A stretch of DNA of 64,000 bases from a virus: positions 1-64,000 of IMG/VR virus record IMGVR_UViG_3300046683_000606; one strand, written 5' to 3'. Made by a program: the position numbers and the translations under genes. Position 1 is the first letter of the stretch; each line of letters begins with the position of its first letter. The notes under the pieces were generated by a model, which was given only the letters and a program-made list of their open reading frames with translations, searched no databases and had not been told where the DNA came from. Positions 3,045 through 45,716 of the stretch are shown in pieces.

Positions 3045-6000
3045 ATGGCCACGCAAGTTGACGATGAACTGGAGAAATACGCGAAACCGTCTGCTGCTAA
3101 GTCTAGCGACGATGATGAGTTGGAGAGGTATGCCAAGAAGTCTAGCGCTTCATCGAGTGGCGATTACGAGAGCGACTACGTTCCTCCTCCGGTAAAGCCG
3201 CACCAACCTGGATACCTTGAGCGCCTAGGTCAGTCGATCGGCGCTCCTACGTCTCTACACGAACTAGGCGAAGCCGCGACTCCTACTCCGCTGAAACTGC
3301 TGCGAACGCCTACAAACCCACAAGAAGCAAAAGACTATATGCGCTCCGCGGCATCTGTAGCGACCGGCGGAGCCTATCCACTTTTGGAAGGTGCCTACAA
3401 CTGGGGAAAGAAAGCCATTGGGAAAATAGGCGAAGGACTTGGAGAGGAGTACCAGGCGGCGAAAAACATCGGAGCCGGACAGCCGGTATTGCCGAACATA
3501 GGGAAAGCCGCTTATGGCGTCGTGCATGGCGGCGTCGGTTCGATTCCTTTCATCGGAGACCCGATCGAAAGGGCTGGAGAGGACGTACTCAACAAGAATT
3601 ACGCTGGCGCTGCCGGTGGACTGACCGGCGTCATTGGCCAGGTTGCCGCACCGGACATTGCGGAAGGTGCTCGCAGTTTGCGCTCTGGATTTTCTGGCGC
3701 ATTGGCAGATAGATTCGCTACTCCTGCGATTGCTCCAGGTCTTAGCGAACCGGCAACTGCAAATCTTGGCGAACCGATTGCCCGGCGCGGCGTAGAGAAA
3801 ACTCTGCGCGCTACCGGGATGCCGTCTGGGAATGTTGGATTGCGTGAATCGTTTTCGATCGCGGCGCCAGACCTGGCAGAAATTGAGCGCAAGCAACCTC
3901 TAGGAGAATCTGGAACAAAAGGCGGCGTCATCCGTCCGGATATGAGACTCCGGCAGACCGTCGAGAACATTAAGGACCGGCTGGACAGCCTTTGGAAAGA
4001 GGAGCGTCAACCACAAATCGATCGTAACGCTGAATTGCCGGCAATCTCCCGCGAGCAGTTGCTTGGTGATGCCACAATCGACCAACTAAAGAGAATTGAA
4101 AAAGCATTCAAGATGGAAATTCCCGATCAGATTAATCTTGGCGAAGCGGACAAGATGCTGGTCAAAGTGAATGCTCGTCTGCGACGTGCCGAAGGCATGA
4201 CCCCGGAAGCAAGAGCACTCGCCTTGGAACTGAGTCCAGACCTGCAGAAATTCAACGAGATGAAGGGCGAACTTCACAAGAGTATCGGGGACTTGCTGGA
4301 GCGTGTGAATGAACCTGGAGTAAAAGAGTTTAACCGTCGATACGGAGCATTGTCGGAAGTGCGGGACGCCCTACGTACCAGGATGAATCCGGTAGAAGCA
4401 GAAAGAGTACTGGACGCGGTGCGCGCTACTGGAGGATTGGGGCGCAACGTCAACCTATTCGAACGCTTGCACCTAAAAGCCTCTCCAGGCCGTTTGATGC
4501 AAAAGGGCTTGGAAGACCTTTCGCAGTCAAATCTGCAGATCACTCCGCCGGCACAGCGGCCGCCGGTGGCTGGATTGCTTCCACCGATTCCTGAACCTTT
4601 GCCCGGTCCTGTGCCTGAAAGTGGTTCGGTTCGCGGTGGACGGTGGACAACTCCTGCCGGATTGATTCCTCCGGCGCCGCCTATTGAGGGCCAATACATT
4701 CCGCCATTGGAGCGCGGGGCTGCTGACATTCCCTACGCGCACCAACCGACTCCGCCGACGGTTCCTCCAGAGTTTCGCGTACAAGCTCCGCGCATGGCAT
4801 CTGGAACGATTCCACCGATCGAGCCGGTTAGCAGTACCACGAACCTTCCCGGCGGTGGTGTCCGCAACGCTCCATTGCTGCCTGGTCCTGCGTCGATCGC
4901 TGCGACTGCTCCTCCTCCGGTTGCTGGTAAGTTCCGAATTGAGCCGATCGTGCCAGCAACTCCCACGGTCACTCGCGGAGAAATTGTCGGACGTGGCCAG
5001 CTATTCAAAGGGCCGGCACAGATTCCCCAGATTCCGCCTCTCATGCTGCCGGAAAAGGCAACTGGATTTGCGGCGAACAAGTTGCCGTTCAAGGCACCTC
5101 TTGAGCCTACTGCACCGACAAAGCCGATCATGGAAGGCGCTCCACCTATTGAGAGACCGACTGGCCAGCTACCTCTCAAGCCCGAAGCTGAACGTGCGGC
5201 TGCCATGAAGGAAATTAAACCGCCTTCGGCTAAAGGAAAAATCAAGCCGGTAGCGGAGCGCTTGAGTACCGAAGAGATTGCCGAAGCGGAAGGACTGCTG
5301 GCTTCCGAAGCCGGCGCAATGGCTACAGGCGACCGTCCAGGGGCTTACTTCGATGAGTCTGAACAAGGTGATGTGCGTCTAGGCTCTCGCGGCGCGCAGA
5401 CTAGGGGCGGAGATTGGCGCGGGGTAAAGAGTGGCCGGAGAATGTATCCGTTCATGCGGGAGAATCCCGACGTGAATCCGCAAGCGGTCCTGAAAGCGCT
5501 GCGGAATAAGGACTCTGCCGCCTACAACAAGCTAATCACGCGCGCCGATAACTTCATCAAAGGAAACTACGAAAAACCTCCAGGGATGGGCGCTATGGAC
5601 TTCCTGAAAGCACTTGAGAATCCAGACGCGGAGCCGGAGACGATCGAACCTGGCGCGGATGTATTCGCTCCTCCAGAACAAGAAGCTGCTCCAGCACCAA
5701 CGGCGCCGCGTATCCCTGAAATTGGCAAAGGACAGACGGGAGTGATTCCCGGCATGGAAGAGGACGTAGCAAAACAGAACCAAGGCGCGGCCAAGGTTGC
5801 CGGCGAGAAACTGACTGCCGAAGCTAACCGGCCAAAGGACATTTCCGCGGCCGCTGGCGAGATGGAAACCAAGTCTCCATTATTCCGCGGGACGGAAGCT
5901 AGTCCGCAACGGGAGATATTCGGCAATGCTCCGCCGGCCGCCAATGAGCCTCCGGCAACTATTGTTCCAGTCCTGAAAGAAACCGGATGGGGCTACGAAG

Positions 6001-42627: not shown

Positions 42628-43707
42628 TTAGAAAGTGGCCTCCATTAGCTTACCGGCGGCGCGATCTAGTTCTGTCCGGCCATCGGCGTATTTGATCGTC
42701 TGAGAAAAGCGCGTGAGACCTTGCACCATTCCCCAAACGGTGTTACGTGGTCCGTCCTGGGCAACGTTGACGGCATCATAACCCGCGTCTATGGCTTTGC
42801 GGGTCAGTCCAGGGATACGCTTCCCAAAGAGCGCGTCAAGTACTTGCTCTTTGTTGGCGCCAATGATGCGCGTTTTGGAAGCTGCGATTTGTGCTTCAAG
42901 GTCCGAGGTTGATTCTTCGGCGTACCGGCGGACGGCGGCAAAGTAATGTGACCATTTGCTGCGAGCGTTTCCAACGTGGCGTACGCTGATTTCTACGACC
43001 TTGGACGCGCCCCATATGATGTGATTCCCGCACATTTCGCGGTACAGGAAGCGGGTTAACTTGAGTGCTGAGGCTCCAACTTCGGAGTTTTGCACGATTA
43101 CACCTTTGTAAACGGCGCCGTCGCTGCCGCGTTCGGTTACGGTCAAGTCTGAATTGCGAAGGAAGGCGAACATATCATGATCGGAAGCGTACAGGGCTGG
43201 AAAGTCGTCCTCTTTGCAGCGAATATCCGGCATGGCCGGTGCCCATCCCTGCGATTCCAATCCCAAGAGCCGTTCGGCTACTTCATAATTCCAAATGCGC
43301 GAATAGTCGTCGGTCACAATCGAACGGAGTAGCAGTCCGCCGTTCTCGTGGAACATCAAATTGGCTACTGCGTTGGCGGCGCCATTCTGCAAGCGTGCGG
43401 CCAGTCCGTAGTTAAGGTTCTGGCAAGCGAGGGTAGCGGGGAGTTCGCGCAAGTAGGATGCCGGTGCTTCGAGTCGGGCGCAAAGCTGGCCAAACGCCCA
43501 ATGCGTGAGCTTCGCGGGTACTCCGGCCTTGCCTACCAGTTGCACATCACCGTCCACGTTCTCAACGCGCAAGTCTGCGAAGGGCATGCGCTTTTCTTTG
43601 GCAATGTCAGCGTAGTGCTTGGTTGCGTCGTACAGCGATTGCAAGTCGGCGAAGCGTTCATCTGCTGGCCGTGTGCTCCATTGTTTATTTGCTGCAAAGA
43701 GTTCCAT
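42628..43707 (-). CDS. DUF932 phage/plasmid-like protein, 359 aa
   Basis: Start MELFAANKQWSTRPADERFA at ATG 43707 with AAAAGGA upstream. The central segment (GGLLLRSIVTDDYSRIWNYE; YKGVIVQNSEVGASALKLTR; CGNHIIWGASKVVEISVRH) matches the conserved blocks of DUF932 (phage/plasmid-like TIGR03299) proteins, common beside early genes and antirestriction genes. Role unproven. A 32-nt RNA motif (43723-43754) sits immediately before the RBS. Confidence 0.85.
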   Translation of the reverse strand: MELFAANKQWSTRPADERFADLQSLYDATKHYADIAKEKRMPFADLRVENVDGDVQLVGKAGVPAKLTHWAFGQLCARLEAPASYLRELPATLACQNLNYGLAARLQNGAANAVANLMFHENGGLLLRSIVTDDYSRIWNYEVAERLLGLESQGWAPAMPDIRCKEDDFPALYASDHDMFAFLRNSDLTVTERGSDGAVYKGVIVQNSEVGASALKLTRFLYREMCGNHIIWGASKVVEISVRHVGNARSKWSHYFAAVRRYAEESTSDLEAQIAASKTRIIGANKEQVLDALFGKRIPGLTRKAIDAGYDAVNVAQDGPRNTVWGMVQGLTRFSQTIKYADGRTELDRAAGKLMEATF

Positions 43708-43722
43708 TTGCTTTATCCTTTT

Positions 43723-43754
43723 GCCCGACCGTGAGTTGGCTCTCCACTGTGGGC
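43723..43754 (-). ncRNA. Structured leader motif, copy A (upstream of DUF932 gene)
   Basis: On the minus strand the 32 nt read GCCC-ACAGUG-GAG-AGCCAA-CUC-ACGGUC-GGGC. GCCC pairs with GGGC; GUG/GAG pairs with CUC-AC with a bulged G; AGCCAA is the loop. The same layout with a 3-bp stem replaced by AGC/GCU occurs at 45238-45269, so the stem is maintained while its sequence changes. The motif ends about 15 nt before the ATG. Confidence 0.6.
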
Positions 43755-43756
43755 GA

Positions 43757-43803
43757 TTGACCGTTAGGCGGTCAGGGATTGGAGCGTTTCTGCTCCGCAC
43801 CCA
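43757..43803 (-). other. Two small hairpins in the DUF932 leader
   Basis: TGACCG/CGGTCA (43757-43773) with a five-base loop, and GGAGC/GCTCC (43776-43791) lie between the 43810 stop and the RNA motif. Together with the motif they make a structured intercistronic leader of about 100 nt. Confidence 0.45.
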
Positions 43804-43809
43804 AACGGT

Positions 43810-43989
43810 CTAACTGTTATGTTCTTCGAAGGTATCCCATACGATTTTGCGTTGTGCATCGGCCAGTGTGCGGAGTGTTTGATTCCGCGCGATGGCATCC
43901 TGACAGTTGCCGTTGCCACGTTCAGAGCGGATGTGGGAAGCGGCGCGTTGTAAAATGTTGATTGCCCGTGTATAGGTTTCGTAGTCCAT
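43810..43989 (-). CDS. Small helical protein, 59 aa
   Basis: ATG 43989 with AAGGAG seven bases upstream. Opens MDYETYTRAINILQRAASHI; ends KIVWDTFEEHNS. Fully helical in appearance; function unknown. It is followed by the structured leader of the DUF932 gene. Confidence 0.55.
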   Translation of the reverse strand: MDYETYTRAINILQRAASHIRSERGNGNCQDAIARNQTLRTLADAQRKIVWDTFEEHNS

Positions 43990-43991
43990 TT

Positions 43992-44120
43992 TTAACTCCT
44001 TCCCAGTCTCGAAGCGATAACGCGAACAAACGAAACAAAGATAACGAGAATCACCAATGCCGGAGCGTTGGCGTCTAGCATGCGGCTAATTGCTTGGGCG
44101 GCGGTCTGTAGGGCGTCCAT
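43992..44120 (-). CDS. Membrane micro-protein, 42 aa
   Basis: Reads MDALQTAAQAISRMLDANAP, then a hydrophobic helix (ALVILVIFVSFVRVIA) and SRLGRS. GGAAGG lies about 8 nt before ATG 44120, and the gene sits 2 nt after the upstream stop and 2 nt before the next start, which supports translation. Role unknown. Confidence 0.5.
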   Translation of the reverse strand: MDALQTAAQAISRMLDANAPALVILVIFVSFVRVIASRLGRS

Positions 44121-44122
44121 GG

Positions 44123-44422
44123 TTACGCCTTCCTTTCCAGGTCAACGCGAGTAATACCGGCGTCGAACGGTTGCGGATCGGTGCGGTAGCAATTCTGAAA
44201 AGCGGTTGCGTGCCATTCCAGGTATTCGGAGTATTTCCGAAGTTCAAACCCGTAAATAGCGTGCAAGTCCAGCACGGTCGCATTGCGGGTCTGTCCATCG
44301 TCTGATATGCTGACGCGCTTTCCGCCTACGCAATAATCGTTAGAGTTAAAAGCGCGCGAAATGAAGCGGACAACATTAGGACTGCAAACGTGTCCGTGAT
44401 AACCACATTGTTGGCGGTCCAT
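44123..44422 (-). CDS. Small hypothetical protein, 99 aa
   Basis: MDRQQCGYHGHVCSPNVVRF onwards; Cys/His-containing start and a helical middle with YSEYLEWHATAF. TAATG coupling to the ArdC-N gene upstream. No family recognised. Confidence 0.5.
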   Translation of the reverse strand: MDRQQCGYHGHVCSPNVVRFISRAFNSNDYCVGGKRVSISDDGQTRNATVLDLHAIYGFELRKYSEYLEWHATAFQNCYRTDPQPFDAGITRVDLERKA

Positions 44423-45225
44423 TAGAACACCACATCCTGCTTGGCAGTCTTCGGGAATCCAGGGCGGGAAAACGGCCGGTCAAATGATGGAACGTGGCGC
44501 GGTGTCGGCTTGGGCAGTTCCGCAATAATGTCCATGATGGACACCTGCTCGCCACGCATTGCGCGGTCATAGGTGGAGTCTTTCGGCGGTGGCAGTGGTT
44601 TAACCGGCTTTACCGGCGAGGGGAATTTAGAATCGGGGAACGTGTAAGTTTTCGGCGGTTCGGGAGTCTCGCGTACCAGTTCACAATTCTCGTCAAGCGT
44701 GAAAGTCTCAATCGTGGCTTCGGGGGAAAACTTCTCAATCTGCCGGTTAACATGCACGGCGGTTGAGTGGTCCAGCAATTCGGCTTCGTCGGTGTCTTCT
44801 TCACCGGCATACGGGATATTTTCCGGCGTGGCGTCGGGCTCTGGCAGTTCAAGCGGCGCGGTGGGCGTCGGGACGCGCACGTACTGTTTTGAGATGTGGG
44901 CGTCAATCACATTTCCGCGAATGTCCACCGCTTCCGTCTGCGATACGTGGAATACGGTCACAGTCCAGGGACGGCGCTCCTCACGGCCGTTCTTGCCAGT
45001 CTTGGTGATAAAGGTGAGACACTTCACGCCATGTTCACCTTTGCGAACCTGGCGGCCGTTCGCCTTCCATGCGTTGTACGAGAATACGTTAACGCGGGGA
45101 ATGATCTGATCTTCTGGGATTCCCTTCGCCATAAAGCCGCGAATGATCGGCGCATAATTCGAAAGGGATTGACCGGATACTGCGCGGGTGAGTGCTTCTT
45201 GCTGGATTGCTGCTGAGGTGGCCAT
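44422..45225 (-). CDS. ArdC-N-terminal-domain protein (antirestriction-like), 267 aa
   Basis: Residues about 15-110 match the ArdC N-terminal domain: SLSNYAPIIRGFMAKGI, NVFSYNAWKANGRQVRKGEH and WTVTVFHVSQTEAVD. In plasmid ArdC this domain binds single-stranded DNA and is followed by a metalloprotease; here no HExxH is present and the remaining 150 residues are Pro-rich and acidic, so it may bind DNA only. Preceded by copy B of the 32-nt RNA motif. Confidence 0.75.
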   Translation of the reverse strand: MATSAAIQQEALTRAVSGQSLSNYAPIIRGFMAKGIPEDQIIPRVNVFSYNAWKANGRQVRKGEHGVKCLTFITKTGKNGREERRPWTVTVFHVSQTEAVDIRGNVIDAHISKQYVRVPTPTAPLELPEPDATPENIPYAGEEDTDEAELLDHSTAVHVNRQIEKFSPEATIETFTLDENCELVRETPEPPKTYTFPDSKFPSPVKPVKPLPPPKDSTYDRAMRGEQVSIMDIIAELPKPTPRHVPSFDRPFSRPGFPKTAKQDVVF

Positions 45226-45237
45226 TTCTGCTCCTGT

Positions 45238-45269
45238 GCCCTACCGTAGCTTGGCTGCTCACTGTGGGC
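45238..45269 (-). ncRNA. Structured leader motif, copy B (upstream of ArdC-N gene)
   Basis: The minus-strand RNA reads GCCC-ACAGUG-AGC-AGCCAA-GCU-ACGGUA-GGGC, the same length and layout as copy A at 43723-43754, with only the 3-bp stem and one loop base changed. It ends about 12 nt before ATG 45225, next to the SD AGGAG. Confidence 0.6.
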
Positions 45270-45286
45270 TTGTTTGTTGCGTTTTG

Positions 45287-45454
45287 CTACTGTACTGCCT
45301 TCTTACAAGTAAAGAGCTTGCGTTTGAGAATTTCGATTGCTCGGCTAAGTGCTTGCCATTCTTGATGCTTCCATCCGTCGCCAATACCGGCTTGAATCTC
45401 TACTCCCGCGGAGATTAAAGCTAGAATTTGAGCTCTTGTTAATTCAATTTGCAT
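45287..45454 (-). CDS. Small helical protein, 55 aa
   Basis: ATG 45454 overlaps the preceding gene by 11 nt. MQIELTRAQILALISAGVEI begins an amphipathic helical product; ends basic (KRKLFTCKKAVQ). Function unknown. Confidence 0.5.
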   Translation of the reverse strand: MQIELTRAQILALISAGVEIQAGIGDGWKHQEWQALSRAIEILKRKLFTCKKAVQ

Positions 45455-45632
45455 TGTGGTCCCATTTGGCATCATTCTTTCCGGCGGCATATCCCTTGGC
45501 ATAGTCAAATGCGCCAAACGGTTTCGTGGCCGATGGGGCGTCTATGTAGCGTTGTTCTCTGCCTGCGTATCCATCTTGATAGCCGGAACGATAACTGAGG
45601 GAAACACGTTCTAGTGTTTTATTACTTATCAC
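45444..45632 (-). CDS. Small Gly/Tyr-rich protein, first gene of the minus block, 62 aa
   Basis: GTG 45632 with AGGAGAGG upstream. SYRSGYQDGYAG and DYAKGYAAGKNDA are a duplicated GY-rich motif seen in many small phage proteins. It lies directly behind the promoter/operator at 45688-45716. Function unknown. Confidence 0.55.
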   Translation of the reverse strand: MISNKTLERVSLSYRSGYQDGYAGREQRYIDAPSATKPFGAFDYAKGYAAGKNDAKWDHNAN

Positions 45633-45687
45633 TGGCGAGCCTCTCCTGCCTACTGAGCCCTTGCGTCGGGCATCCGTGGCAAGAGCA

Positions 45688-45716
45688 ACAGTACGCTAAA
45701 CTGCGGACAACGTCAA
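45688..45716 (-). promoter_or_regulatory. Early promoter with operator dyad at the strand switch
   Basis: The -35 TTGACG (complement of 45711-45716) and -10 TACTGT (complement of 45688-45693) are 17 bp apart. GTACGC-TAAACT-GCGGAC (45691-45708) matches the operator at 40611 in 12 of 12 arm positions. It should start the minus-strand early transcript. A plus-strand -10 (TAGAAT, 45768-45773) for the terminase operon lies nearby. Confidence 0.7.

Follow-up and report, generated by a model that had tools for sequence, protein, structure and literature searches.

Small riboswitches linked to the Shine-Dalgarno sequence (SD), such as preQ1, pack a conserved core into a compact fold of about 30 nt, with P1 adjoining the SD. 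The RAT antiterminator hairpin recognized by the CAT domain of LicT/BglG proteins holds two similar irregular sites in its stem, which are read alike by the halves of a homodimer (PMC3369936). Phage T4 has autogenous translational operators, for example that of gp32 (PMC535899; reviewed in PMC3014915). In pLS20-family plasmids, conserved regions of 420–750 bp with several inverted repeats lie upstream of ardC establishment genes and are described as transcriptional (PMC8708921).

The stretch of viral DNA analysed here (the window; 64,000 nt) carries three copies of a leader RNA motif that resembles each of these systems in part. Like RAT, it presents a pseudo-symmetric RNA site, and we use LicT/RAT as a working analogy. 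Unlike RAT, which acts on transcription termination in sugar genes, the motif lies at the SD, centers on an A-G mismatch, has single bulges and has no known CAT-domain partner. In the copies that we read, the overlap with a terminator that marks RAT is absent: the SD and start codon follow directly 3′ of the hairpin, leaving no space for a terminator or T-run. As in the T4 gp32 operator, a leader structure adjoins the SD of a phage gene that would be controlled by its own product; by contrast, the T4 operators have other shapes and sequences, whereas this motif recurs in phages sharing only DUF932, the putative binder. Its length of about 30 nt, its conserved core and its P1 adjoining the SD recall the preQ1 type, from which it differs in having no covariance-model match, in being found only in phages and in having no known ligand. 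It also resembles the pLS20-family regions as a control element repeated ahead of ardC and further early genes in a mobile element, but takes the form of a ~32-nt RNA at each SD. Among these precedents we prefer a combination, in which control would be autogenous as in T4 gp32 and a symmetric dimer would sit on a pseudo-symmetric hairpin as in LicT/RAT.

The motif copies and the features around them are as follows.

42628..43707, minus strand: DUF932 gene, 359 aa, with a conserved MELF start at 43707
43716..43720, minus strand: Shine-Dalgarno AAGGA of DUF932, 2 nt 3′ of copy 1
43723..43754, minus strand: motif copy 1, before DUF932; reads GCCCACAGTGGAGAGCCAACTCACGGTCGGGC from 43754 to 43723; P1 GCCC/GGGC, core ACAGU/ACGGU, bulges G and C, P2 GAG/CUC, loop AGCCAA
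44422..45225, minus strand: ArdC N-terminal-domain-like gene, 267 aa; borderline Pfam match, without the protease part
45231..45235, minus strand: Shine-Dalgarno AGGAG of the ArdC-N-like gene
45238..45269, minus strand: motif copy 2, before the ArdC-N-like gene; reads GCCCACAGTGAGCAGCCAAGCTACGGTAGGGC from 45269 to 45238; P2 AGC/GCU
45287..45454, minus strand: 55-aa ORF, between the 62-aa ORF and copy 2
45444..45632, minus strand: 62-aa ORF with a GTG start, directly 3′ of copy 3
45647..45681, minus strand: motif copy 3, before the 62-aa ORF; covariance-model match; core ACGGA/UCAGU (U-A to A-U), P2 GCCC/GGGC
45688..45716, minus strand: sigma70-like promoter, by consensus resemblance only; TTGACG at 45716-45711, 17-bp spacer, TACTGT at 45693-45688

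An earlier note on this DNA had described copies 1 and 2 as 32-nt motifs identical at 25 of 32 positions, with a compensated inner stem and ending at the SD, all of which we confirm. The seven differences comprise six inner-stem bases, where GAG/CTC in copy 1 becomes AGC/GCT in copy 2 with pairing maintained, and one unpaired base. The SDs start 2–3 nt 3′ of the two copies, with the ATGs at 15 and 12 nt, respectively. The pattern of these copies matches twice in the window, against 0.00 matches expected from shuffles. While the note was right about these two, its total of two overlooked copy 3, which is more diverged but adopts the same fold (E=3.2e-7 among 61 stretches; E=1.9e-8 over the whole record, with a model from all copies). 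The extended P1 of copy 3, UUGCC/GGCAG, overlaps the SD GGAG. A model search of the whole 68.6-kb record returned only these three copies.

Of the note's gene labels, DUF932 stands (Pfam E=1.2e-7), and ArdC-N is roughly right, its Pfam match being borderline at 22.5 bits against a cut-off of 22.6. The 62-aa ORF has no match in Pfam or PHROGs. Because the conserved MELF start lies at 43707, copy 1 falls in the 5′ UTR (the mechanical ORF extends to 43800). The transcription start predicted from the sigma70-like promoter, on consensus resemblance only, coincides with the first base of copy 3, and all three copies would belong to a single leftward operon, each standing before one of its genes (the 62-aa gene, the ArdC-like gene and DUF932, respectively).

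Relatives of the motif were found in two ways, by an exact pattern scan with the shared bases and by a search with the DUF932 protein. In the DNA upstream of DUF932 homologues, the stems and the apical loop vary freely, and the constant part is the supposed internal loop. The structure given in the earlier note was incomplete, as it overlooked the symmetric core: the 'internal loop' is conserved and itself paired. The consensus reads P1-C[ACRGU]N-G-P2-loop-P2'-C[ACRGU]N-G-P1'. The two core strands pair mutually through A-U, C-G, an A•G mismatch, G-C and U-A, and a single base bulges out 3′ of each strand. Counting the flanking C and G, each strand carries the repeat unit CACRGUNG, which creates an almost perfect two-fold axis. 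One core strand is ACAGU and the other ACGGU, in either order. The AGCCAA loop, considered as a key element, was rejected, since the loop is free in distant copies.

RNAfold returned this fold unprompted on 8 different copies, as did RNAalifold on 27, with local shifts in three. Across 27 distinct copies 98.7% of cells are paired and 7 of 11 pairs changed on both sides, across 33 distinct copies the values are 98.6% and 8 of 11, none of 500 shuffles matched the observed pairing and covariation, and sliding the partners by one column lowers pairing to about a third, all of which is partly circular in that many or most copies were gathered with filters demanding pairing. (L151 entered alignment A4 with one extra 5′ base, which leaves the counts unaffected.) Because the scanner behind many copies demands pairing, three less circular tests weigh more. 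Two ACRGU words occur within the 80 nt upstream of DUF932 at 18 of 51 loci, and in all 18, which include several near-identical phages, the words pair in register with P1 and P2 of at least 3 bp each. The same 18 loci are all A/G, though A/A or G/G was equally permitted. When two viral-contig scans fixed P2 and left P1 free, P1 reached 4–5 bp at true DUF932 leaders (2 bp at L151) and mostly 1–2 bp at chance matches. Two matches, L125 and L133, have a P1 of 6 bp but were rejected as leaders: L125 showed no leader context, and L133 sits antisense inside a coding repeat. Run as a chance control, a scanner with altered core words gave few matches, mostly from one simple repeat in L057. In the final viral scan with R/R cores, most matches were G•G chance matches, and the clear leaders, L240 and L254, are A/G.

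In the third test, the core pairs, which are nearly invariant, proved to change in a compensated manner: A-U becomes G-C in L153 (GCAGU/ACGGC), and U-A becomes A-U (ACGGA/UCAGU) in L058 as well as in window copy 3. A candidate G-C to C-G change in L021 (ACACU/AGGGU) was left out of the second alignment, as an alternative fold is also possible there. Taken with the pairing, we regard the motif as almost certainly a real structured RNA.

The mismatch consists of one A and one G in all copies but one, the G•G of L080. On a maximum-likelihood tree of 37 DUF932 proteins its orientation flips at least 7 times, a count which assumes that the leader is inherited with its gene. A site that works in both orientations points to a symmetric reader that contacts the core only. 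In L080, the copies at 3928 and 3435 (minus strand) are almost identical in stem and loop and have A-G and G-G cores, respectively; perhaps this is a recent duplication caught between the two orientations.

The position of the motif is as constrained as its strand, which is always that of the gene. Where an SD was recognized, its start lies between −4 and +8 nt relative to the end of P1′ in all copies but one, the exception being the 128-aa gene of L080 (SD at +17), and the start codon usually follows 7–22 nt after P1′. P1 overlaps the SD in L017, L028, L029 and the ArdC copies of L001 and L013. In several copies (L017, L028, L034 and others) transcription would start at the hairpin, from a sigma70-like promoter. 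That the element depends on such promoters is contradicted by window copies 1 and 2, which lack one there. Two features of translational operators, a hairpin beside or over the SD on the mRNA strand and a compensated fold, are both present, and we consider it likely that the motif acts on translation.

DUF932 genes preceded by the motif encode proteins of 99% to as little as 36% identity, and some phages also have it before ArdC-like genes. Other downstream genes in some phages encode 115, 128 and 92 aa, and a further one of 58 aa lies just ahead of DUF932. In a strict scan of 12 phage genomes (nearly whole or in large part), every match lay directly before DUF932 or ArdC. In 1.1 Mb of sequence drawn from both motif-bearing and motif-lacking phages, 19 model matches fell at E≤5e-6 and the next at 0.07, these E-values being rough. 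The earlier note had proposed a cis-regulatory RNA or protein-binding site for a small regulon, to be given up if related genomes held no further copies or copies that broke the stem. The idea survived this check: further copies occur in related and unrelated phages, with compensated stems. The small regulon is centered on DUF932 and includes the ArdC-like gene only in the clade to which the window belongs.

More distant DUF932 genes, for example in phages Cp1R7A-A1, S-ESS1 and ZS04, showed no motif by scanner or models, and within the clade the DUF932 homologues at L011, L022, L023 and L027 also lack it. Matches of the first model, R1, in S-ESS1 and in the phages of L020 and L025 are without the motif's structure. 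DUF932 in L020, L024 and L025 has a different leader instead. Upstream of the gene in these three loci (~425-500, ~3220-3295 and ~4925-5000, respectively) we noted a covarying stem, GUACGG/CCGUAC, GCUCGG/CCGAGC and GCACGG/CCGUGC, with a UCCCAAG-like loop followed by AAAUC and GCCACGUUGGAGG at the SD. This looks like a second leader RNA class.

Outside phages, no credible copy was found in 297 acidobacterial genomes (one phylum; R1 with strict filters, a model that misses the diverged core of copy 3), and an exact-pattern scan of bacterial genome_contigs gave chance matches only. The matches there, L083-L087, lack a sound gene context or lie in repeats, and their number is near chance expectation. 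In agreement with the note's statement that the motif belongs to no known family, Rfam 15 gave 0 matches in the window at the curated gathering threshold and no relevant one up to E=10; copy 3 was covered by the whole-window search rather than by that of 43600-45400. The sole match in the latter, SAM-SAH at E=5.7, is unrelated and due to chance. The leader RNA family is real and so far unlisted; it is of an ordinary kind, an SD-proximal cis-regulatory hairpin, in a new form.

Comparison of gene content in 13 motif-bearing and 5 motif-lacking DUF932 phages reveals DUF932 as the only gene common to all motif-bearing ones. Between the window's phage and the 12 other motif-bearing phages, DUF932 is shared in 12 of 12 and the next real gene in 5 of 12, the other high-ranking rows being frames antisense to DUF932. 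Since little else relates these phages to one another, the leader travels together with its gene. The binder is probably a homodimeric protein, because the site is symmetric and the mismatch works either way round, and DUF932 itself is the leading candidate, because no other gene is common to all motif-bearing phages. An element that simply travels in cis with its gene could produce the same sharing, which leaves DUF932 a putative binder. Against DUF932 in this role stand the motif-lacking homologues inside the clade, and the protein has a neutral pI of 6.7, no sequence match in the PDB and no convincing fold relative; a fold search gave VIA-align Z of at most 5.6, with actin-capping-like rows, which we distrust, among the best. 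NCBIfam and PADLOC returned nothing for DUF932 or the ArdC-like protein, and the literature searched describes neither function nor regulation for DUF932.

Starting from what we observed, a conserved fold of constant strand and position that is linked to DUF932 and has second and third copies within one operon, we infer how the leader may work. Each copy folds into a hairpin that is centered on the two-fold pseudo-symmetric duplex and ends at, or runs into, the SD. A binder on the core could hold P1 closed or sit beside the SD, blocking the 30S subunit and setting the level of translation. By binding its own leader, DUF932 would exert autogenous control, and in some phages it would cross-control ArdC and small genes. 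Most likely, the hairpin is a docking site that turns translation of DUF932 and a few neighbors up or down. The full proposal, a new family of phage 5′-UTR translational operators with DUF932 as binder, is tentative, being somewhat more apt to need revision than to stand whole. More doubtful still, though possible, is its widest form: that the pseudo-symmetric operator, with an obligatory A-G mismatch read either way round, is the recognition site of a new RNA-binding family, DUF932, which has moved with the gene among unrelated phages and in some was copied before counter-defense genes, creating a small translational regulon.

Should a phage gene encode the reader, no candidate but DUF932 is present in all of these phages; failing that, a host protein or a small molecule reads the motif. 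In a riboswitch, the bulged A-G-mismatch core would form a pocket for a host-made small molecule or ion, and the ligand would close P1 against the SD. A small, highly conserved core within free stems and adjoining the SD fits such a switch, as do the overlap of P1 with the SD in some copies (L017, L028, L029 and the ArdC copies) and the several different genes downstream, and a pseudo-symmetric ligand would fit the symmetric core. However, metabolite riboswitches usually serve metabolic or transport genes, whereas here one gene family predominates, and the lack of credible copies in the 297 acidobacterial genomes, of matches beyond chance in genome_contigs and of an Rfam match also speaks against this reading, which we consider unlikely. 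We likewise give a low probability to readings that need no phage-encoded regulator, in which the motif is bound by a host protein or is a passive 5′ hairpin boosting translation or shielding the mRNA end. A host factor is possible since only DUF932 is common to the motif-bearing phages, and the sigma70-like promoters that start the transcript at the hairpin (L017, L028, L034, others and window copy 3) also favor this reading. Yet window copies 1 and 2 have no such promoter, a passive hairpin would not require the ACRGU pair to be invariant, always with one A opposite one G, and the bacterial genomes, at the sensitivity of our searches, yielded no RNA of this type.

The three copies in one window operon, two of them intergenic, would also suit a processing site, at which an RNase cuts the bulged core and frees or removes each ribosome-binding site in a polycistronic mRNA; RNase III sites of T7-like phages can indeed have internal loops. 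But the hairpin is short, the 5′-terminal copies would gain nothing from cleavage, and an invariant A-G mismatch with symmetric bulges is not known as an RNase III determinant, so that we find this quite improbable. Least probable, with only a very slim chance, is that the motif acts as DNA and not as RNA, as an operator close to where transcription starts: some copies do lie at a predicted transcription start, but the half-sites are direct repeats with a variable spacer, partner bases covary, the strand is always that of the gene, and a promoter is absent there from window copies 1 and 2.

Returning to a translational operator read by DUF932, the leader is the first handle found here on a family that is common on phages and plasmids and whose function is undescribed in the literature searched. 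The motif is also a strongly supported RNA family, missing from Rfam, which many soil phages, unrelated in other respects, carry immediately ahead of the DUF932 ribosome-binding site. If DUF932 binds the motif, a large protein family gains a function as RNA-binding translational regulator, and the symmetric hairpin around A•G would define a new type of site for protein-RNA recognition. If true, the proposal would also link translational control to an anti-restriction-like gene in phages.

Several loci hold further observations on the motif and its gene. In L145 (minus strand, 4515-4485), a perfect motif stands before a short ORF (MTTLYQAAPGW...) at a locus on which no DUF932 relative was detected, as though other DNA had retained the leader together with the first codons. 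A possible copy on the reverse strand of L260 (~3420-3450) precedes a 64-aa ORF (77 aa from an ATG inside the hairpin); its P2 is weak and mostly G-U, no DUF932 was detected on the contig, and the match is probably due to chance. In L076 (3065-4232) the DUF932 match is split into two pieces (query 1-155 and 171-358), which suggests a frameshift or an insertion in the gene. Finally, one or two extra hairpins lie directly upstream of the motif in the window (43759-43773 and 43781-43796, minus strand) and in L001, L007, L008, L013 and L030; with a CCTA loop, their stems vary among phages while pairing is retained (GACCG/CGGTC versus CGATTG/CAATCG).
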